Shown: positions 44,398 through 53,491 of the stretch, one piece after another | Layout of the letters: each line of letters opens with the position of its first letter | Position numbering within the stretch: position 1 is the first letter of the stretch | Translations under genes and position numbers: made by a program | The notes under the pieces: generated by a model | The model's database searches: none | Seen by the model: only the letters and a program-made list of their open reading frames with translations | Told to the model about the DNA's origin: nothing | Assembly: GCF_000758525.1 (NCBI RefSeq) | Contig: NZ_CP009241.1 | Coordinates: 1,240,001-1,304,000, forward strand | DNA: 64,000 bases | Reading direction: 5' to 3' | Source of the DNA: Paenibacillus sp. FSL H7-0357 | Lineage (GTDB): Bacteria; Bacillota; Bacilli; Paenibacillales; Paenibacillaceae

Positions 44398-44852
44398 CAA
44401 GCAGGCTTCCAGAAGCGCATCAGTGTCTCAACTAAATAGGCCTCCAGAAGAGCGCATCAGCGCCTCAATTAAGTAGGCCACCAGAAGCGCATCAGTGTCC
44501 CAACTAAGCAGGCGCCCAGAAGCGTATCAGCGCCTCAACTAAGTAGGCCACCAGAAGCGCATCAGCGACTCAACTAAGCAGGCGCCCAGAAGCGTATCAG
44601 CGCCTCAACCAAGCAGGCCACCAGAAGCGCACATCAGCGCCTCAACTAAGTAGGCCACAGAAGCGCATCAGCGACTCAACTAAGTAGGCCACCAGAAGCG
44701 CATCAGCGCCTCAACTAAGCAGGCGCCCAGAAGCGCATCAGCGTCTCAATTAAGTAGACCTCGAGAAGCGCAACAGCGCCTCAACTAAGTAGGCCACCAG
44801 AAGCGCATCAGTGTCTCAACTAAGCAGGCGCCCAGGCATTAGTGTCTCATCC
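44398..44852. repeat. 35-bp minisatellite, about 12.5 copies
   Basis: Tandem units of about 35 bases of the form AGTAGGCCACCAGAAG + CGCATCAGCGCCTCAACTA. Variants alternate, e.g. AGCAGGCGCCCAG versus AGTAGGCCACCAG, and TCAGTGTC versus TCAGCGCC. The last unit is degenerate. 35 is not a multiple of three and no long frame runs through it, so it is non-coding. There are no unique spacers, so it is not a CRISPR. Confidence 0.9.
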
Positions 44853-44862
44853 ACAAGCACCC

Positions 44863-44910
44863 AGACCCAAAGCGCCCTGTCCGAGCAAGCAGACAGGGCG
44901 CTTTGGGTCT
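44863..44910. terminator. Terminator of the cysC/STM operon
   Basis: Perfect 19-bp stem AGACCCAAAGCGCCCTGTC / GACAGGGCGCTTTGGGTCT; it overlaps the cysC stop codon. Confidence 0.85.
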
Positions 44911-45634
44911 ATTTATTAAGTGTAGGCAGAGTCCCTCTTCGTGTTAGCCAGGACCATATCTCATTCACGCTTTCCTCCGGCGTCTGCTCGGCTGTGCGGA
45001 GCGTTAACTCTGGGCTGACAGGCGCCTGGTAAGGATCAGAAATGCCGGTGAAGGAGGGGATTTCGCCCCGGCGGGCCTTGGCATACAGCCCTTTGACATC
45101 CCGCGACTCGCAGATTTCTAAAGGGCAATCTACATAGACTTCTGTGAAACCGGGCAGCGACTGGCGGGCATAGTCGCGCATTTCCGCATAAGGGCTGATG
45201 ACCGAGACCACTGAAATGACGCCATGCCGGTTCAGCATTCCGGCGACGTAGACGGCCCGGCGGATATTCTCGAACCGGTCTTCCCGGCTGAAGCCGAGGC
45301 CTTGTCCGAGCGCGCGCCTCAGCTCATCTCCGTCGAGCCATTCGGCAGCCAGACCCTGTTCTCTCAGTCTGTCCGTCAGAAGCGAGGCAATCGTTGATTT
45401 GCCCGCCCCGGACAAGCCGGTGAGCCACAGAGTCATACCGCGACCTGAACGAATCCCCGCACTTTTGTGCGCTGCTTCAAATTCGGAGCCTTCGTACTCT
45501 GCTCCAATTCCAGCATCTGCTCTATGTCCTGCACCTTCGTGCTCAACTCGAATCCCCGCACTTTTGTGCGCTGCTCCAAACTCGGAACCTTCGTGCTCTG
45601 CTCCAATTCCAGCACTTTCCCGATTTGCTCTCAT
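44909..45634 (-). CDS. cysC: APS-kinase-like protein (CysC family) with repeated N-terminal extension
   Basis: 241 residues. From about residue 67 it is an adenylylsulfate-kinase-like P-loop enzyme (GLSGAGKST; LDGDELRRALGQGLGFSRED; VISPYAEMRDYAR; SRDVKGLYAKARRGEI), expected to phosphorylate APS to PAPS. The first 66 residues form an unusual acidic extension with two near-identical copies of an AGIGAEHEGSEFGAAHKSAG unit. ATG at 45634 has GGAGGTG 6 nt upstream and overlaps the STM4011 stop (ATGA), so the extension should be translated; the internal ATG at 45436 lacks a good site. No cysND or other sulfate genes are nearby. Confidence 0.87.
   Translation of the reverse strand: MRANRESAGIGAEHEGSEFGAAHKSAGIRVEHEGAGHRADAGIGAEYEGSEFEAAHKSAGIRSGRGMTLWLTGLSGAGKSTIASLLTDRLREQGLAAEWLDGDELRRALGQGLGFSREDRFENIRRAVYVAGMLNRHGVISVVSVISPYAEMRDYARQSLPGFTEVYVDCPLEICESRDVKGLYAKARRGEIPSFTGISDPYQAPVSPELTLRTAEQTPEESVNEIWSWLTRRGTLPTLNK
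45450..45614. repeat. Direct repeat of about 65 bp inside cysC
   Basis: 45450-45515 and 45549-45614 are nearly identical (a few substitutions) and encode the duplicated N-terminal unit. Confidence 0.85.
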
Positions 45635-46503
45635 CTCTGCACCTCCGCGATTCCGTAGGGTATTCGTTCCAGCAGGCCGGAGCCATAAATCTGCTCCAGC
45701 CGGAGCCCGGGCATGTGGATGTAACCGATATAGCAGTCGCAGAAGTTCATGCGGCAGCTCCGCTCCGCAGCGAGGCCTTCCAGTCCGTCACGGTAGAGGT
45801 TGCCGATGATGCCCCTGTCCTTATAGCAGCGTTTTACTATACCGGGTCCCTGCACATAAAACACATTGCTGCCGGCGTTACAGAGTTTGCCCAGGCTTTC
45901 ATAGTCGACTGTATTGATATGAAAATGCGGATCAATGCTGCCGAGAAAGGCGAGATCTTCTGGTGTGTAATAATCCGGTTTGTCTTTGTAGGCATTCACC
46001 CACAGATAGACATCATCCGGCAGGGCGGCCCGCAGCGAGGCAATTGCCGGAAAGGCGCTGCGCAGGCCCACACTGCCGACACTGAAGGGAATGCCCTGCT
46101 TATAGACAGCCATACATTGGGCCAGAAACCGTTCCTCCCGCACCTGTCCCGGGTGATAGGTCGCCCAGAAGGCAGCCGTGGCCGGATTCAGCTCCGGGAT
46201 AAAATCCAGGCTGGCCGACAGGTTGGTCTGGATAGCCACCTTGTCCACATGGGGGAGATGGGAGAGGGTAATCAGCGCTTCTTTATACCAGCGGTGAATC
46301 AGTCCTTCACCGTAAGGATTGAAGAAGATCGACAGCCGGTGGCCTGCCGCGCCTTGCTCAGCAGCCCAGCGGACAAAGGTCTCCAGTCCTTCGCGGTCCT
46401 TGGCAAGCGTAGCGGCGCTGTCTCTCGTCTTGCCGAACGGACAGTAGGGACAATCATAATTGCAGGAGGTGAGGGCCCCGCGGTAGTAGAGGACGGCATT
46501 CAT
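45631..46503 (-). CDS. STM4011-family radical SAM protein
   Basis: 290 residues. The N-terminal CNYDCPYC is the radical SAM CxxxCxxC cluster motif. Extra cysteines occur near the C-terminus (CRMNFCDCYIGY), which could bind a second cluster. It matches the STM4011 family in length and neighbours. The start overlaps the STM4012 stop and its stop overlaps cysC (both ATGA). Reaction unknown. Confidence 0.85.
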   Translation of the reverse strand: MNAVLYYRGALTSCNYDCPYCPFGKTRDSAATLAKDREGLETFVRWAAEQGAAGHRLSIFFNPYGEGLIHRWYKEALITLSHLPHVDKVAIQTNLSASLDFIPELNPATAAFWATYHPGQVREERFLAQCMAVYKQGIPFSVGSVGLRSAFPAIASLRAALPDDVYLWVNAYKDKPDYYTPEDLAFLGSIDPHFHINTVDYESLGKLCNAGSNVFYVQGPGIVKRCYKDRGIIGNLYRDGLEGLAAERSCRMNFCDCYIGYIHMPGLRLEQIYGSGLLERIPYGIAEVQR

Positions 46504-47891
46504 GGCAAAATGAATCCTTCCATACGTTCCCTGATTTCACCCGAGATGAACCAGTCGCCGATGGAGTCCGAGTAGCCTAGACCCTCAGGGGTTAATCGCA
46601 GGATACCTTCCTCTACTTCGCCCAGACCACTTTGAAGCAGCAGGTCAAGCTCAGGATAATCATTCCACAGCGATGCCGAGAAACGTCCGCTGTAGTCGGC
46701 CAGCTTCAGCCCCTCACTGTGCAGCACAGCTTTTAGAATAAAGCGCCGTTTCTGTTCTTCCCGGCTCAGCATAATGCCGTAATCGGCCGTGTCATAAGAC
46801 TTGGACGACACATAATCGGCAATGATGCTCTCTGTTGCCTTGCGGCTGACGCCGTAGCGGGAGGCGTAATGCACCTCCCGCGTATAGGAACGGGCTCCGC
46901 AGCCGAGGCCGACCATCCCCTCCTCCTGACAGCTGTAGTCGAGGATGGCTTTGCTGGTGCCTGCCGTTTCCTTAGCGAAGCGGCGCATGGAATACTGGCG
47001 GTAGCCGTGCTCTGCGAGGAGCTGGCAAGCGGCAGTATAGCAATCATGGCGGAGATCCTGCTGGCGCAGCAGATCTCCCGGCTTCACAATCGTATGCTCG
47101 CGGGTGTAGAGCGGATAGAGAAAAATCTCCTCCGGTTCATACAGGAGCGCCTGATTCAGCGAATAGAGCCAGGACTCCACGCTCTGGCCGGGAAGCCCAT
47201 AGATCAGATCCAGATTCAGGATGGGGAATTGATATTTCCCCAGCAGCTCCAGTGCCCGGTATACCACCTCAGGGTTCTGCGGACGGTAGATGGCCGCCGA
47301 TTCGGCGGCGACGAAGCTCTGAATGCCCATGCTGACCCGGTCCACGGTATTGTCCTTCAGGATGGCGAGCTTCTCTTCCGTAATCGTCTCGGGTGAGGTT
47401 TCGACTGAGATTGAAGCAAGGGCGGTGTCCAGGCCCATGATCTCCCGGGCGATCCGGAACAGCCGGCTTAGCTGCGGTGCGGCCAGCAGGGTTGGCGTAC
47501 CGCCGCCGATCGCGAACCGGGCATACGGCTTATGGCCGGTAAAGGCCGACCACTGCTTTGCCTGCCGTTCCAGTGCATCCACATAGGCGGCGTGGACATC
47601 CGCACGTTTGTCCGGCAGGGTGAAGAGATTGCAGAAGCCGCAGCGTGCGCCGCAGAACGGAATATGCATATAGAGAAAAAAAGAATCCGCAGGCTCTTCC
47701 AGCCACAGCTGTTCCAGCGGAATAGGAGGCTGGAATTCACGATAGGCTGTCTTGTGCGGATAGGAATAGAGATAATTGCGGTAAGGGTTAGCGGTAATCT
47801 GCTCTTTCCAGCGCTTAAGCTCCTCCGAAGAGAGAGACGGTCTTACGTCGTTGTCATTAGGTTGCTGCAGGAAATTGCCGGTTGACGTCAT
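46500..47891 (-). CDS. STM4012-family radical SAM protein (HemN-like)
   Basis: 463 residues with the HemN-like radical SAM core: HIPFCGARCGFC (CxxxCxxC), the GGGTPTLL SAM-binding glycine motif, SVETSPETIT and GIQSF. It resembles coproporphyrinogen dehydrogenase but belongs to the STM4012 family by context; a heme role is not supported by the neighbours. Overlaps STM4011 by 4 nt; 39 nt after the STM4013 gene. Confidence 0.87.
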   Translation of the reverse strand: MTSTGNFLQQPNDNDVRPSLSSEELKRWKEQITANPYRNYLYSYPHKTAYREFQPPIPLEQLWLEEPADSFFLYMHIPFCGARCGFCNLFTLPDKRADVHAAYVDALERQAKQWSAFTGHKPYARFAIGGGTPTLLAAPQLSRLFRIAREIMGLDTALASISVETSPETITEEKLAILKDNTVDRVSMGIQSFVAAESAAIYRPQNPEVVYRALELLGKYQFPILNLDLIYGLPGQSVESWLYSLNQALLYEPEEIFLYPLYTREHTIVKPGDLLRQQDLRHDCYTAACQLLAEHGYRQYSMRRFAKETAGTSKAILDYSCQEEGMVGLGCGARSYTREVHYASRYGVSRKATESIIADYVSSKSYDTADYGIMLSREEQKRRFILKAVLHSEGLKLADYSGRFSASLWNDYPELDLLLQSGLGEVEEGILRLTPEGLGYSDSIGDWFISGEIRERMEGFILP

Positions 47892-47930
47892 ACGTTTCTC
47901 CTTTCTTCCGGGTTGAACCGGGCTGTTGAT

Positions 47931-48716
47931 CTAGAGGAAGAATTCCCGGTAAGGGACATTCCACACGGTCTCATGTGCCAGACGGTGTCCCTGATAGCCA
48001 TCTTCTCCATAGGCTGTGCCGTGGTCCGAGAAGGCCAGGCAGAAGACCGGATTGCCGCGTTCGCGAAAGCGCTCAAACAGGCGCCCCAGCTCTCCGTCGG
48101 CATAACGCAGTGCGGCACGCTGGCTGTCCACGGAATCCTTCCGGGCACCCGGAAGGAAGAAATGGTTCGGCCCGTGGATGGCTGACACATTGAGGAACAG
48201 GAACAGCCTTTGATCCAGCGGAGTATCGTTCAGCACCTTCAGGGCGTGGTTCACCTGATGCTCCGTGGAGCGCGGGTTCGTGACACCGAAGGTCATCCGC
48301 CAGTAGCTCTGCTGGAAATAACCGGGCAGTACACGGGCAAGCGGGACCTTTTTAGTGAAAAAAATAACCCCGCCAATACATACCGTACGGTAGCCCTCGG
48401 CAGCAAGCCCTGATACAAGATCCGGCGTGTCGAACAGCCAGGTGTGCGGATGGGTCTTCATCCCGGTATTTCTGGAATGGAACAGCCTCACATGCGCAGC
48501 TTTATCTGTGTCTGCGGGAGTCGGCAGGAAACCGCCGAAGAAGGCATGATGTGCGGCATAAGTGAAGCTGCCGGGCGTATGTCTTTTCTCCCAGGAACCG
48601 GTGCCGCACAGATTGGGGCAGTTCTCTTCCTCCAGAACGGCAGCATCGTAGCGCAGGGTATCCAGTGTGATCATCAGGATGTCATGGGTGCCAACAATGG
48701 CATTCATATCTGTCAT
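47931..48716 (-). CDS. STM4013/SEN3800-family sulfatase-like hydrolase
   Basis: 261 residues of the alkaline-phosphatase/sulfatase superfamily: DILMITLDTLRYD carries the N-terminal metal ligands, and FSDHGTAYGEDGYQGH the C-terminal Asp/His pair. The CxPxR formylglycine motif of true sulfatases is absent; the segment after the metal site is TPGSFTYAAHHAFF, so a Ser/Thr nucleophile (phosphatase or transferase style) is possible. Third gene of the operon. Confidence 0.82.
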   Translation of the reverse strand: MTDMNAIVGTHDILMITLDTLRYDAAVLEEENCPNLCGTGSWEKRHTPGSFTYAAHHAFFGGFLPTPADTDKAAHVRLFHSRNTGMKTHPHTWLFDTPDLVSGLAAEGYRTVCIGGVIFFTKKVPLARVLPGYFQQSYWRMTFGVTNPRSTEHQVNHALKVLNDTPLDQRLFLFLNVSAIHGPNHFFLPGARKDSVDSQRAALRYADGELGRLFERFRERGNPVFCLAFSDHGTAYGEDGYQGHRLAHETVWNVPYREFFL

Positions 48717-48778
48717 AACCGTTATAAGCGCCCTTTCTTAATAGATATGGATTAAAAATAGCAATACGCTATAAGGTC

Positions 48779-50059
48779 TCATTCATGATTCGCAATTGCA
48801 TTCAGCTTTTTCATTTCCCATTCATAGGTGCCGCAGCCGTCATATTCCACATCGTAGAGCAAGTCGCCAAAAGGATTTACGTCCGCAGCATAAGTGCGCC
48901 GGGAACTGCCGGAGGATACCAGGATATCAATCCCGGCAACAGCCGAGCGGGGGAAGGCGGCAAGGGCCTGTACGGCTGTACGCCGTACCTGCTCCTGCAC
49001 CTCTTCCGTGAGCCCGGCTTCTGCCGGAGACATCCGCTGGCTGCGCAGATGCAGGTTCGTAATGGGCGTGGTGCTGACCCGGGCAACGGAATGGCAGGCT
49101 TCTCCAAGCACGACAAGCTGGCGGATGTCGAACGAAACTCCGGCTGCGCCCGGCTTGGGAATCCATTGCTCAGCATACGCGCCATGGCTGTAGAGCCAGT
49201 TGATGATTCCGGACAGGACAGCGGAGTCGGTATAACGCCGCAGTTTCCCCGAATTATAGTACACGGGTGGGCGAGTGATATACTGTTCAACCCCGATAGT
49301 AGTCACAGCGATTTCGGCTCCCGTAGCGGGATTGATCTGATAGGCGATGACGCCGGAAGCGGCAGAGCCGCAGGACAGCTTGATGAATACCCGGTGCATC
49401 CGCTCCGTGATCATCAGCTCCCGCAGGGACGCATAGTCTGACGGAGGATGTCCGCCGCCCAGGGGCCGGGGCACCGGAACACCGGACTCAGCCAGAATCT
49501 GCTGAGTCCGGCGTTTGTCGGTCATGGCGGCAATATCCCCGGGATGGTTCTGCCAACGGGCTTCAGGCAGCAGCTCTGCGGCCTCGCGCTGAAGCCTGGC
49601 CAGCAGCCGGCAGTAGCCGCGGAACCATTGAGATGGATGATGCAGCACGCCGGGCATGTCCTTCAGCCGCCCGGCGGCCTGGAGACTCAGGGGATGGGGA
49701 TCAGGATGATGCCCGAAGGGGTGCAGCGAGTCATCCTGCTCCCCGGCATCCGGTGCGCCCAAGGCAATGAGGGCCTGCTCAATCTCGAAGCTGCCGCCGG
49801 GTGAATCCAGCCGCAGGAGAGGCGGAGCTGTTGCCGGACGTGAACCGGAAGGCTCTGGGCACAGGCCCGCCTGTCCGCTGGTCTGCAAGTGCAGCGCCTT
49901 CTCCAGCAGCTCGGCGAGCGAACTTCCCCGCAGCAGCCCCGAATACGGGATGAGCAGGGCCGGAGGCATCACGAGGCGGCTCCGCGCCTGCTGGATACCG
50001 TCCGAGCGCCTGTCGCCGGGACAACATAGCAGGATCAGCGGCTGCGGTTCCTGCATCAT
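48779..50059 (-). CDS. STM4014-family ATP-grasp-like protein
   Basis: 426 residues. The second half looks like an ATP-grasp ligase: MTDKRRTQQILAESGVPVP, VFIKLSCGSAASGV and AGIDILVSS...DVNPFGDLL. ATP-grasp enzymes couple carboxylates to amines, often on peptides. ATG at 50059 overlaps the STM4015 stop (ATGA), which fixes the start. The N-terminal 150 residues are not recognised. Confidence 0.8.
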   Translation of the reverse strand: MMQEPQPLILLCCPGDRRSDGIQQARSRLVMPPALLIPYSGLLRGSSLAELLEKALHLQTSGQAGLCPEPSGSRPATAPPLLRLDSPGGSFEIEQALIALGAPDAGEQDDSLHPFGHHPDPHPLSLQAAGRLKDMPGVLHHPSQWFRGYCRLLARLQREAAELLPEARWQNHPGDIAAMTDKRRTQQILAESGVPVPRPLGGGHPPSDYASLRELMITERMHRVFIKLSCGSAASGVIAYQINPATGAEIAVTTIGVEQYITRPPVYYNSGKLRRYTDSAVLSGIINWLYSHGAYAEQWIPKPGAAGVSFDIRQLVVLGEACHSVARVSTTPITNLHLRSQRMSPAEAGLTEEVQEQVRRTAVQALAAFPRSAVAGIDILVSSGSSRRTYAADVNPFGDLLYDVEYDGCGTYEWEMKKLNAIANHE

Positions 50060-50901
50060 TCGGTGATGGAAGGATAACGCCAATCTTCCTCGTCATCGCT
50101 TTTTTGCTGGTCGCTGACATCGGCCGGCAGGCCGCTTGCCTTCCAGCGGGCAATCATTTCATTCGACATATAATGATAGCTCAGGTTCAGTGCCTGCAGG
50201 CCTTTAATCCGCTCACTGGCCAGCAGCGCCTCCGCACCCTTGTCACTAAGCGTTCCAAGCGAAAGGTCCAGCGTATGAAGCTGGTCCAGAATGGGCGCAT
50301 CGGCCACGGCCGCAGCGATTTCATCCTGAATTTCACTGTTTTTCAGTCCCAGATAGGTAAGCTTAGGGAACCTATCCGGCTGGATCAGCGGGTAGAGATC
50401 TTCCAGTCCGCCATCAAAGCCATAGTTGTCCACGCCAAGGTACAGCTCCAGCTTGCGCAGATTCGGCAAATGTCCTGCGGCGATTTCTGCCAGAACGCTT
50501 TTGCCAAGTCCGCCGGTAATAATAATCAGTTCCTCCAGCTTGTCATGCTGCAGACTGCTGAGGCTCAGATCATTTCCGCCTTGAATGGTGAGTGACTGAA
50601 GCTCCGGATAAGCGGGGAGCAGCGGGGAAAGATCGCTTTGTGTAATCCACGAAATTTCGCATTCTTCATAACCCATCTCCCCGATAAACAGCTTGCGCAG
50701 AGCCGGGAAGCTTCCGCTGTATTTCACAAGGGCTGACACAACCTCCTCGGAGCTGTTTTCATAGGCCTGTCCCCAATCCCCAATGATGAGGCTGGTTAGT
50801 TGCGCAGCTTCAGGACTTGTGCTCAAGCGTTCAATCTCCGTGCCTATTCTTTGACCTTCTTCAAATTCGTCGTACCCGACAGTAAGCTTTACTTCCGTCA
50901 T
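50056..50901 (-). CDS. STM4015-family leucine-rich-repeat-like protein
   Basis: 281 residues with leucine-rich-repeat-like periodicity from about residue 60 (LRKLFIGEM, LQSLTIQGG, LEELIIITGG, LRKLELYLG, LTYLGLKN, LHTLDLSLG, LQALNLSYH), hence likely a protein-binding scaffold. First gene of the STM operon. ATG at 50901 fits GGGAGGG with a 7-nt spacer better than the ATG at 50907. No signal peptide, so cytoplasmic. Confidence 0.82.
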   Translation of the reverse strand: MTEVKLTVGYDEFEEGQRIGTEIERLSTSPEAAQLTSLIIGDWGQAYENSSEEVVSALVKYSGSFPALRKLFIGEMGYEECEISWITQSDLSPLLPAYPELQSLTIQGGNDLSLSSLQHDKLEELIIITGGLGKSVLAEIAAGHLPNLRKLELYLGVDNYGFDGGLEDLYPLIQPDRFPKLTYLGLKNSEIQDEIAAAVADAPILDQLHTLDLSLGTLSDKGAEALLASERIKGLQALNLSYHYMSNEMIARWKASGLPADVSDQQKSDDEEDWRYPSITE

Positions 50902-51121: not shown

Positions 51122-52531
51122 TCAGACCCAGCCGAACAAGCGCGCTGCCTGTGCAACCAGGAAAGTAACGGCAATGGCGATGCCCAGCGGTATGACGGCC
51201 GAGAGCACTGCCCATTTCATGCTTTTGGTCTCTTTGTAGATGTTGATCAGGGTAGTGCCGCATGGATAGTGGAGCAGGGAGAACAGCATCATATTGAGCG
51301 CGGTCAACCACGTCCAGCCATGGCTCAGGAAGATATCCTTGATGCTGCCGATACCTTCGACATCGACCATAGCACCGGAGGACATGTAGCCCATAAGCAG
51401 AATCGGCAGTACGATTTCATTGGCCGGAAGCCCCAGGATGAAGGCCATCATAATGAAGCCGTCCATGCCGAGCAGCTGGGCAAAAGGATCAAAAAAAGCG
51501 GCCATATGGTTCAGCACGCTGTCTCCGCCAACGAACACATTCGCTAGGATCCAGGTGATAATGCCTGCCGGAGCAGCTACGACGATTGCGCGGGTCAGCA
51601 CATTCAGCGACTTCTCCTTGGAGGAGCGGACAATCGTCTTCCAGATCTGCGGACGGCGGTACGGCGGGAGTTCGAGCGTGTAGTGGGTGGGAACGCCGCG
51701 CAGCGCGGTTTTGGACATGACCCAGGACACCGTTAAGGTTACCGTGATACCGACCATTACGATTCCCATCAGGACAAGGGCTGTCGAGAAGGTCCGCAGC
51801 GCACCAGTGGTAGCGGCCCCCACCATAAACATGGAGGACAGCAGAATCAGGGTCGGCCAGCGGCCGTTGCAGGGCACGAAATTATTGGTCAGAATAGCCA
51901 GCATCCGTTCACGCGGCGATTCGATAATGCGGGTGGAGAGAATGGCGGCAGCATTGCAGCCGAAGCCCATCGACATCGTTAACGCCTGTTTGCCGTGCCC
52001 GCCGGATTTCTTGAACAACCGGTCCATGTTAAAAGCAACGCGCGGCAGATAGCCGAAATTCTCCAGCAGCGCAAATACCGGGAAGAAAATCATCATCGGC
52101 GGCAGCATGACGCTGATAACCCAGGAGGTTCCGCGGTACAGGCCAAGCACAAGCACGCCGTGCAGCCAGGCCGGAGCGCTCACTGCTTCGAATCCGGCGG
52201 TTAAATAACCTTCGATGAAGCCGAACAGCGAGGCCAGCCAGCTCGAAGGATAGTTCGCGCCGGCAATCGTAATCCAGAAGACGAGTCCGAGCCCGGCGAG
52301 CATAATGGGGAATCCCCATATTTTGGAGGTGACAATATTATCAAGCTTATAAGTGCTGCCCAGCTTCTTTTTGTCCTGGTAGGTAACTGCATCTCTGCAG
52401 ATCCCCGCAGATACACCATATATTCCGCTTACGATTTCATCACGGATTCCGCCCTTGTCTGCGAGATTCTTCGCTGCAGAGAGCAGGGAATCCATCGGAT
52501 CGGGTCCCTTAATGACATGCGGTGACTCCAT
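51122..52531 (-). CDS. feoB: FeoB permease part (ferrous iron transport)
   Basis: 469 residues with about nine hydrophobic segments and the two Gate motifs of FeoB (GLYRGTSWVISVMLPPM, GFGCNAAAILSTRI and FVPCNGRWPTL). It forms the pore for Fe2+. In most bacteria this is fused to the G domain; here it is a separate gene that overlaps the G-domain gene by 23 nt. Confidence 0.93.
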   Translation of the reverse strand: MESPHVIKGPDPMDSLLSAAKNLADKGGIRDEIVSGIYGVSAGICRDAVTYQDKKKLGSTYKLDNIVTSKIWGFPIMLAGLGLVFWITIAGANYPSSWLASLFGFIEGYLTAGFEAVSAPAWLHGVLVLGLYRGTSWVISVMLPPMMIFFPVFALLENFGYLPRVAFNMDRLFKKSGGHGKQALTMSMGFGCNAAAILSTRIIESPRERMLAILTNNFVPCNGRWPTLILLSSMFMVGAATTGALRTFSTALVLMGIVMVGITVTLTVSWVMSKTALRGVPTHYTLELPPYRRPQIWKTIVRSSKEKSLNVLTRAIVVAAPAGIITWILANVFVGGDSVLNHMAAFFDPFAQLLGMDGFIMMAFILGLPANEIVLPILLMGYMSSGAMVDVEGIGSIKDIFLSHGWTWLTALNMMLFSLLHYPCGTTLINIYKETKSMKWAVLSAVIPLGIAIAVTFLVAQAARLFGWV

Positions 52532-53240
52532 GGCTCACTACCCCCTTCGATCCGGAAATATTCCTCTGTCCCATATTGGCTTTGAGCGAAGCGAGCAGGC
52601 TTTCGTCACCGTCCAGCAGCCGCAGGGCAATCCAGCGTGCCGGATACCTTGAACCGACCGTCTGCTCTACCATAGGAAGGAGCGCAGCAATGCCCTGTTC
52701 AATCTCATCGCTATACGTAATCCGCAGCGGCTCCGCTGTATAAGTACCAGTAGCCACACGCTCAATTTGATCCAGCAGCGCCTCAATGCCGATTTCACTC
52801 CGGGCCGAAATTGCGGCTACCGGCACGCCGAGCCGTTTCGAAATGGCCTTCAGGTTAATATCAATGCCCAGCTTCTTCGCTTCATCGATCAGGTTGATGC
52901 AGACAACGGCCCGCCCGGTAATTTCCAGCACCTGCAGGGCAAGATTGAGATTGCGCTCCAGCGAAGTGGCGTCCAGCACCACCAGCGTCACATCAGGCTG
53001 TTCAAAAATAATGTAGTCCCTTGCGGCCTCCTCGTCAGCTGAGTTGGAGTACAGGGAGTAGGTACCCGGAAGATCTACAGCCAAGTAGGTATTGTTCTTG
53101 TGGGTAAACTCGCCTTCGGCGGTGATGACGGTCTTGCCCGCCCAGTTGCCGGTGTGTTGGCGCAGGCCGGTCAATAGATTGAAGAGTGTGCTCTTGCCCG
53201 TGTTGGGATTGCCTGCAAAAGCTACAGTGTAACGGTTCAT
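52509..53240 (-). CDS. feoB: FeoB G-domain part
   Basis: 243 residues: the GTPase and GDI-like domains of FeoB. G1 GNPNTGKST, G3 DLPGTYS and G4 NLID are present. It would drive or gate the separate permease. Its start overlaps the feoA stop and its end overlaps the permease gene, so all three are coupled. Confidence 0.93.
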   Translation of the reverse strand: MNRYTVAFAGNPNTGKSTLFNLLTGLRQHTGNWAGKTVITAEGEFTHKNNTYLAVDLPGTYSLYSNSADEEAARDYIIFEQPDVTLVVLDATSLERNLNLALQVLEITGRAVVCINLIDEAKKLGIDINLKAISKRLGVPVAAISARSEIGIEALLDQIERVATGTYTAEPLRITYSDEIEQGIAALLPMVEQTVGSRYPARWIALRLLDGDESLLASLKANMGQRNISGSKGVVSHGVTACH

Positions 53241-53491
53241 GCTTCATCACCTCCGATTAATTCTCCGTGAATCAGAGCGCTTTCTTCCCGGCGCAGGGCA
53301 ATGGTTGTATTGCTTACCCGGAAGGCGGTAGGGTCTCCGAGCGGACTGCGCCGCAGTACCTCGACAACATTGCCGACGACAAACCCGAGGTCGAGCAATC
53401 TTCTCCTCAGCACACCCTGTACTTCTATGCTGCGGATACGCAGCGTACTGCCGTTCACAGCTTCAGATAATGGAATTACGGCTCCGTCCAT
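53237..53491 (-). CDS. feoA: FeoA
   Basis: 84-residue SH3-like cytoplasmic protein needed for Fe2+ uptake by FeoB (LRRRLLDLGFVVGNVVEVLRR-like core with FRVSNTTIALRREE). GGGGGA precedes the ATG. First gene of feoA-feoB(G)-feoB(permease). No clear Fur box was identified upstream. Confidence 0.9.
   Translation of the reverse strand: MDGAVIPLSEAVNGSTLRIRSIEVQGVLRRRLLDLGFVVGNVVEVLRRSPLGDPTAFRVSNTTIALRREESALIHGELIGGDEA

Follow-up and report, generated by a model that had tools for sequence, protein, structure and literature searches.

The leucine-rich repeat (LRR) protein STM4015, encoded in the 64,000-nt stretch of Paenibacillus sp. FSL H7-0357 DNA analysed here (the window; NZ_CP009241.1, positions 1,240,001 to 1,304,000 of the forward strand), ends in a short tail whose last residue, a glutamate, is conserved across phyla. 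Its gene is the first of six tightly packed minus-strand genes, the others coding for an ATP-grasp protein (STM4014), an alkaline-phosphatase-superfamily enzyme (STM4013), two radical S-adenosylmethionine (SAM) proteins (STM4012 and STM4011) and CysC, an adenosine 5′-phosphosulfate (APS) kinase. Judged by the tail of STM4015 and the predicted fold of STM4014, the cluster has the look of a small assembly line: a group would be attached to the terminal glutamate of the LRR protein and then altered by radical chemistry. The STM4011–STM4015 cluster is widespread in bacteria yet unstudied. It or its proteins occur in Paenibacillus, Salmonella, Escherichia, Streptomyces, Deinococcus, cyanobacteria, Myxococcus and others, and searches of open-licence PubMed Central turned up no study of what the five families do. 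Two genome-wide Salmonella papers carry relevant table entries: one includes STM4013.S (Salmonella LT2) among its tabulated sigma-54 binding sites, the site lying opposite to the open reading frame (ORF; PMC3844500), and the positive-selection table of the other names STM4015 as a hypothetical protein (PMC2784778).

The C-terminal tail of STM4015

STM4015 consists of an LRR domain, which is followed by an acidic stretch and then by the conserved tail. The AlphaFold2 (AF2) model is a confident LRR fold with a predicted local distance difference test score (pLDDT) of 94.1, and the confidence drops toward the end of the chain (87 for residues 261–270, 79 for residues 271–280 and 65 for residue 281). 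The nearest solved structure, with a template modelling (TM) score of 0.90 by query length and 37% sequence identity, is that of B. fragilis Q64V53 (Protein Data Bank (PDB) id: 2ra8), an uncharacterized protein from structural genomics. Its LRR domain is homologous, and the profile match extends to the end of a tail that reads ...YSYPMITE. This match ends at residue 354 of a chain of 362, so the C-terminus of 2ra8 is not free; the eight residues beyond the tail are probably an expression tag.

STM4015 is present in 118 of the 120 loci compared, and all 118 proteins (109 distinct sequences, mostly from Paenibacillaceae, with 10 loci from other phyla) end in Glu. Counted back from the C-terminus, position −7 is Arg in 117 proteins, −6 is Tyr in 111 and −5 is Pro in 108, while the excess of acidic over basic residues at positions −24 to −9 averages 6.4 (range 0 to 9). 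The invariant part of the tail is the terminal Glu; the Arg-Tyr pair is common, not universal. Divergent tails include IYMNAMYTE in Salmonella, YRSIAVSE in Methylobacterium and WRFVALGE in Deinococcus. A search centred on the Salmonella protein gave 241 relatives, and 115 of the best 120 end in Glu; the remaining five (P0139, P0145, P0146, P0196 and P0199) look truncated or aberrant. When the tail columns were removed from the profile and the search was run on loci L141–L161 and L182–L185 (10 of the 118 loci belong to this set as well), 36 of the 37 strong members ended in Glu, with an aliphatic or aromatic residue, Met or Thr at position −3. The sole exception is an Oscillatoria copy with a degenerate RYCSVAD and an extension. 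The line between members and controls in this search was set by us at 60 bits (lowest member 120.9 bits, highest control 51.6 bits). None of the six control LRR proteins, which are weaker LRR matches outside the clusters, has a terminal Glu; among 692 background ORFs with a length of at least 200 aa, 52 have one. No cysteine is invariant across 37 aligned STM4015 sequences.

A scan of six-frame ORFs for a narrower tail pattern returned STM4015 (111 of the 118 fit it), cyanobacterial and myxobacterial paralogues, and scattered chance ORFs. At least two tail-bearing copies per cluster are present in Nostoc, Oscillatoria, Myxococcus, a Myxococcales bin, Streptomyces, Nonomuraea and Deinococcus. 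Some of the extra copies carry HEAT repeats (in Nostoc), and a WD40 protein within the Nostoc cluster has no Glu tail. The Nostoc clusters (L149 3839–13510, L151 and L148) contain several repeat proteins of the HEAT-LRR, LRR and WD40 types, many of which share an N-terminus with ...DAVLGG...; the LRR ones share the Glu tail.

A preliminary description of this DNA, made from its sequence, had noted no precursor peptide. This has to be revised, as the precursor-like element looks to be STM4015 itself, by virtue of its conserved tail. No small separate precursor is known, and no dedicated search for one was made because the recognition of the STM4015 tail made it unnecessary. Set against a ribosomally synthesized and post-translationally modified peptide (RiPP), in which a ribosomal precursor has a modified core and is usually cleaved, the observed likeness is the conserved tail. 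Sulfation of the tail Tyr as a universal step was considered and rejected: this Tyr is replaced by Phe or Ser in some members, and many of the Salmonella-centred relatives have no Tyr at that place. In the STM4015 of the window it may still occur.

The enzymes and the layout of the cluster

The predicted fold of STM4014 is nearest to those of LysX/ArgX and RimK, which VIA-align ranks first, narrowly. A DIR..TN motif is common to STM4014 and LysX/ArgX, and the NCBIfam families (besides STM4014) that are matched by at least three of 39 STM4014 members are glutamate or D-Ala ligases. PPIP5K2 and Asp1 are also among the top Foldseek and VIA-align matches, and the best match by sequence is a yeast PPIP5K-type kinase (E 0.00033). 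LysX/ArgX and RimK are ligases that act on a C-terminal Glu or on protein C-termini. By analogy with LysX and its carrier LysW, STM4014 may join an amine to the terminal Glu of STM4015, a reading that we favour with moderate confidence; that STM4015 is what STM4014 acts on is our inference. The "peptide-bond-type ligation" on an LRR-held substrate that was suggested earlier thus gains support and becomes more precise, in that the LRR protein itself seems to be the acceptor, at its last residue.

STM4013 was described earlier as a sulfatase-fold protein devoid of the CxPxR formylglycine motif, and this is correct. Its nucleophile position (48561–48563) is occupied by Thr52, where sulfatases have Cys or Ser. 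This Thr, within [SN]FT[YFW], is invariant in 23 aligned sequences, as is SDHG. The best PDB match by sequence is an arylsulfatase (PDB id: 6hhm, E 1.8e-6); the match to a nucleotide pyrophosphatase (PDB id: 2gsn) has an E of 2.8e-5, with the Thr region weakly aligned. Despite the arylsulfatase match, assignment as a formylglycine sulfatase was rejected, since Thr52 stands in place of the Cys or Ser of CxPxR/SxPxR. A distant STM4013-like gene is found on a Streptomyces albidoflavus plasmid (L158 7738–9901) beside a NUDIX hydrolase gene and a lasso-peptide B2 gene, in a stretch where the other four STM genes are unannotated. In one genome (G208:C1:7019551-7020323), STM4013 is split over two frames and the adjacent APS kinase is retained.

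Both radical SAM proteins have an intact CxxxCxxC motif. In STM4012, its three cysteines (C80, C84 and C87) are invariant in 20 sequences. STM4011 contains eight invariant cysteines in 23 sequences, three of which (C14, C18 and C21) belong to the radical SAM motif and five (C208, C226, C250, C255 and C257) to a SPASM-like C-terminal part. STM4011 displays a weak PDB match to SkfB (E 0.0014), and Pfam SPASM matches three of its 23 members at E<=0.01. Among the PADLOC defence models, STM4012 alone gives a match, to one candidate model (PDC-M51A, E 5.5e-10).

The genome is a single contig of 7.69 Mb. The positions of the six genes, as given in the preliminary description, agree with the ORFs and the sequence (Table 1), and its assignment of the first five to the STM4015–STM4011 set holds, as all five proteins exceed the curated NCBIfam cut-offs and their genes are adjacent. 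Neighbouring genes share 4-nt ATGA overlaps at three junctions (4015/4014, 4012/4011 and 4011/CysC) and are separated by gaps of 62 and 39 nt at the other two (STM4014/STM4013 and STM4013/STM4012, respectively). The overlaps and gaps had been listed correctly; the accompanying words "four of the five" were a slip.

Table 1. Coordinates of the six genes and associated features in the window
Feature	Coordinates	Strand	Basis or remark
STM4015 family LRR protein, 281 aa	50056..50901	−	NCBIfam NF038076, 358 bits (cut-off 275)
Acidic stretch DQQKSDDEED preceding the tail	50083..50112	−	Read from the sequence
C-terminal tail WRYPSITE ending in Glu281, proposed attachment site	50059..50082	−	
STM4014, ATP-grasp protein, proposed ligase on Glu281 of STM4015	48779..50059	−	ATG start; NCBIfam, 378 bits (cut-off 175)
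STM4013, alkaline-phosphatase-superfamily hydrolase/transferase	47931..48716	−	NF038075, 395 bits (cut-off 250); Pfam Sulfatase
STM4012, HemN-like radical SAM protein	46500..47891	−	NF006067, 579 bits (cut-off 380); Pfam Radical_SAM and HemN_C
STM4011, radical SAM protein with SPASM-like C-terminal cysteines	45631..46503	−	NF038073, 386 bits (cut-off 200)
CysC, APS kinase	44909..45634	−	TIGR00455, 219 bits (cut-off 138.7); kinase domain from Met 45436
Perfect 19-nt inverted repeat with 10-nt loop at the CysC stop	44863-44881/44892-44910	unassigned	

The inverted repeat at the CysC stop fits a possible transcript end. It is not among the results of a simple terminator scan, which had a loop limit of 8 nt (the loop here is 10 nt), and inspection of the sequence revealed no T run 3′ of it on the minus strand. 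Downstream of cysC, a 35-bp unit is repeated about 12 times as a minisatellite (44398–44829). Elsewhere in the window (51122–53491, minus strand), feoA is followed by feoB in the form of two overlapping ORFs, one with FeoB_N (52509–53240) and the other with Gate/FeoB_C (51122–52531). In 10 related loci, the FeoB_N query was matched along its full length (729 nt, 243 aa), so the split of feoB looks natural and not like a sequencing error.

In four of the seven annotated plasmid regions, a DUF6745 (PF20530) protein and a partner of ~100 aa, neither of which is encoded by the six genes of the window, are encoded beside the cluster; two further regions bear no annotation. Such gene pairs (L154 11031–12352, L155 4489–5814, L156 3168–4632 and L161 11012–12309) adjoin the cluster in two Deinococcus, a Methylobacterium and a Streptomyces. 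The four DUF6745 proteins, too, have a similar short stretch at their end. No paper naming DUF6745 was found.

Association of CysC with the cluster

The window genome contains a single PF01583 match, which is the CysC of the cluster. The P-loop, DGD..R, KG[LM]Y and FTG motifs are kept in all 45 linked CysC relatives. In the CysC ORF, the kinase domain is preceded by 66 codons, part of which is a 27-bp tandem repeat (45533–45606). In related genomes, CysC also has open N-terminal extensions, of differing lengths, and in the 45 relatives with linked CysC the stop of 4011 varies in place relative to the point where the kinase-domain match starts, between 563 nt ahead of that point and 31 nt beyond it. 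By these comparisons, the 4011/CysC overlap and the N-terminal extension are not conserved features. The genome has one ATP sulfurylase gene, which adjoins a gene for a CysH-like protein with CC and CxxC cysteines, which we take to mark an APS reductase; no cysC is present within the 3.6 kb examined around these two genes. No match to Sulfotransfer_1 or Sulfotransfer_3 was found in the genome, and so no standard user of 3′-phosphoadenosine 5′-phosphosulfate (PAPS) was found, other PAPS-user families not having been searched.

Co-occurrence was counted in two samples that share genomes. The genus sample comprises all 100 genomes of the genus in the search, with APS kinases taken at E<=1e-20 and adjacency computed as a distance within 6 kb. 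An APS kinase is present in all 41 cluster-bearing genomes (these include G208, with its split STM4013 below the cut-off) and in 10 of the 59 cluster-negative ones (Fisher p 6.6e-19, uncorrected for phylogeny). It is adjacent to the cluster in 34 of the 41, and 29 of these genomes have no second APS kinase. The family sample comprises 148 genomes, with APS kinases taken at E<1e-20, matches listed to E ~6e-5, and adjacency within 6 kb listed by eye. Here all 53 genomes with STM4013 over the cut-off contain an APS kinase, as do 50 of the 95 others. CysC is adjacent in 20 of the 53, and these 20 belong to three genera; the remaining four genera contribute 22 positives, all without an adjacent CysC. 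Of 12 cluster-bearing genomes from other phyla, 11 contain an APS kinase somewhere at E<=1e-8, and the one without is a Thiomargarita draft genome. At the level of loci, CysC matches were found in 26 of 68 named Paenibacillaceae loci (L073–L140) and in none of the 21 loci L141–L161 (20 of them from other families, some short). Adjacency is thus seen in Paenibacillaceae only, and within this family it extends well past the genome in which CysC was proposed as a sixth, coupled member, a proposal that the counts uphold.

In a CysC tree of the window sequence and 40 of the 45 linked loci (five identical ones were merged; L168 was left out deliberately, and L169 did not fit the motif used to select sequences), 35 of the 41 linked sequences fall into a single clade (95/89). 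A group of five (P. elgii, P. tyrfis and their kin) stands apart, and one (P. massiliensis subsp. panacisoli) is placed among unlinked kinases. The tree forces two or more changes of the linked label, though long branches meet there. Taken together, the counts and the tree show a genuine link of CysC with the cluster in this family, for the most part inherited and probably established more than once.

CysC is also found beside sulfatase-superfamily genes and, by eye, Gfo/Idh-like oxidoreductase genes at nine loci (L162–L167, L169, L180 and L181), eight of them from cluster-negative genomes; the genome of L162 (G092) has the cluster elsewhere. A rough scan for a CxPxR-like motif flagged one gene at these loci, and four others have Thr or other residues near that place. 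The sulfatase homologues next to CysC in cluster-negative genomes belong to another locus type.

Known systems, alternatives and the proposed pathway

The STM cluster resembles the LysW/LysX and ArgX systems in two respects: the proposed carrier ends in a C-terminal Glu beside acidic residues, and the ATP-grasp ligase has the same predicted fold, in addition to the common DIR..TN motif. In the known systems, the amide bond is made to the gamma-carboxyl of the last Glu of the carrier, and the GSWGR of the LysX-type ligase recognises the EDWGE of the carrier. EDWGE is found in none of the 118 STM4015 proteins, and GSWGR in none of the 118 STM4014 proteins. Furthermore, LysW is small and zinc-binding, unlike the 281-aa LRR protein STM4015; the STM cluster adds two radical SAM proteins and an alkaline-phosphatase-superfamily enzyme, together with an APS kinase in the present genome; and no later enzyme of the lysine pathway is named among the six genes. 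Full membership in the LysW/LysX family was therefore rejected, both motifs and the zinc fold being absent. As far as the sequences indicate, the STM system works like an amino-group carrier or RimK system and is not a LysW family member.

RimK, an ATP-grasp ligase adding residues to a protein C-terminus (PMC10092738), is similar to STM4014 in its ATP-grasp fold and family matches. Unlike the RimK substrate, ribosomal protein S6 (RpsF), the proposed STM substrate is non-ribosomal, has dedicated radical SAM partners and carries a tail conserved across phyla. The biosynthesis of pearlins (3-thiaglutamate and 3-thiahomoleucine) is like the proposed STM pathway in that an amino acid is worked on at the C-terminus of a carrier and radical SAM enzymes take part (PMC9303977). 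Pearlin pathways load the amino acid by a tRNA-dependent PEARL enzyme, whereas the STM cluster has an ATP-grasp protein, and NCBIfam and Pfam identify no PEARL-like gene among the six. SPASM maturases such as SkfB share with STM4011 the CxxxCxxC motif and C-terminal cysteines; the scarcity of Pfam SPASM matches and the lack of a known small precursor peptide set STM4011 apart from them.

Several other readings of the cluster have to be weighed. The tail of STM4015 could be a docking or recognition signal and STM4015 a scaffold, with the enzymes working on another substrate. The LRR is a typical binding fold, and several residues of the tail are conserved, not Glu alone. A docking motif, however, need not stop at the chain terminus, yet Glu is the last residue in nearly all intact copies, and the partner ATP-grasp protein is predicted to have the fold of enzymes acting on a protein C-terminus; we consider this scaffold reading unlikely. 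Less probable still is that STM4014 is a PPIP5K-type small-molecule kinase, the operon making a phosphorylated, possibly sulfated metabolite and STM4015 being regulatory. The structure and sequence matches to PPIP5K-type kinases speak for it, as does the family membership of STM4013 and CysC, both phosphate or phosphosulfate enzymes. The recurrent matches to glutamate or D-Ala ligases and the narrow VIA-align ranking point the other way, and such a kinase would leave the invariant terminal Glu unexplained.

More plausible, if short of an even chance, is that the LRR proteins are themselves the final product, i.e. regulators or effectors with a modified tail (cf. RimK acting on RpsF), and that no small molecule is released. 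The multiple STM4015 paralogues per cluster, with their differing extra domains, fit this well, and neither NCBIfam nor Pfam identifies a peptidase or transporter among the six genes. On the other hand, for a simple tail the enzyme set seems excessive, with its two radical SAM proteins, alkaline-phosphatase-superfamily enzyme and APS kinase. As for CysC, it might be a passenger that serves general sulfate metabolism, its place behind STM4011 being inherited and not functional. The single large clade makes the adjacency largely a matter of common descent, APS kinases occur in some cluster-negative genomes of the genus as well, and the Fisher tests ignore phylogeny. Against this stand the presence of an APS kinase in every cluster-bearing genome of both samples, elsewhere if unlinked, the repeated changes of the linked label (subject to the long branches), and the fact that the sole APS kinase of the window genome is the linked one despite the presence of sat and cysH. 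On balance, a mere passenger role seems improbable. These estimates overlap and do not sum to certainty, because the end-product reading shares its first step with the reading that we favour and the passenger reading concerns CysC alone.

In the pathway that we propose, STM4015 would be a protein carrier or precursor, with the LRR domain serving recognition and the tail presenting the terminal Glu. STM4014 would activate a carboxylate of Glu281 with ATP and join to it an amine, probably an amino acid. The SPASM-like STM4011 and the HemN-like STM4012 would then modify the tethered group or the tail itself; STM4013, with its Thr nucleophile, may remove or transfer a phospho- or related group. 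In Paenibacillaceae, the APS kinase, which is often dedicated, would supply PAPS by phosphorylating APS, or would phosphorylate a related intermediate. The steps that follow the ligation are clearly less certain than the ligation itself, and the identity of the amine, the order of the steps, the role of PAPS and the choice between release of the product and its retention on the LRR protein are guesses.

More speculatively, and with the odds rather against it, the cluster may represent an unrecognised class of carrier-protein biosynthesis across bacterial phyla. In this class, an LRR carrier with an obligatory C-terminal Glu would hold an amine-linked building block. The radical SAM proteins and the Thr enzyme would convert this block into a cofactor, signal or weapon, and a dedicated APS kinase would provide PAPS as an additional donor. 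Where a cluster encodes several LRR carriers, these would route the same chemistry to different partners. If attachment to the terminal Glu of STM4015 holds true, the LRR carrier joins the short list of protein-tethered biosynthetic logics, and five 'unknown' families become a pathway.

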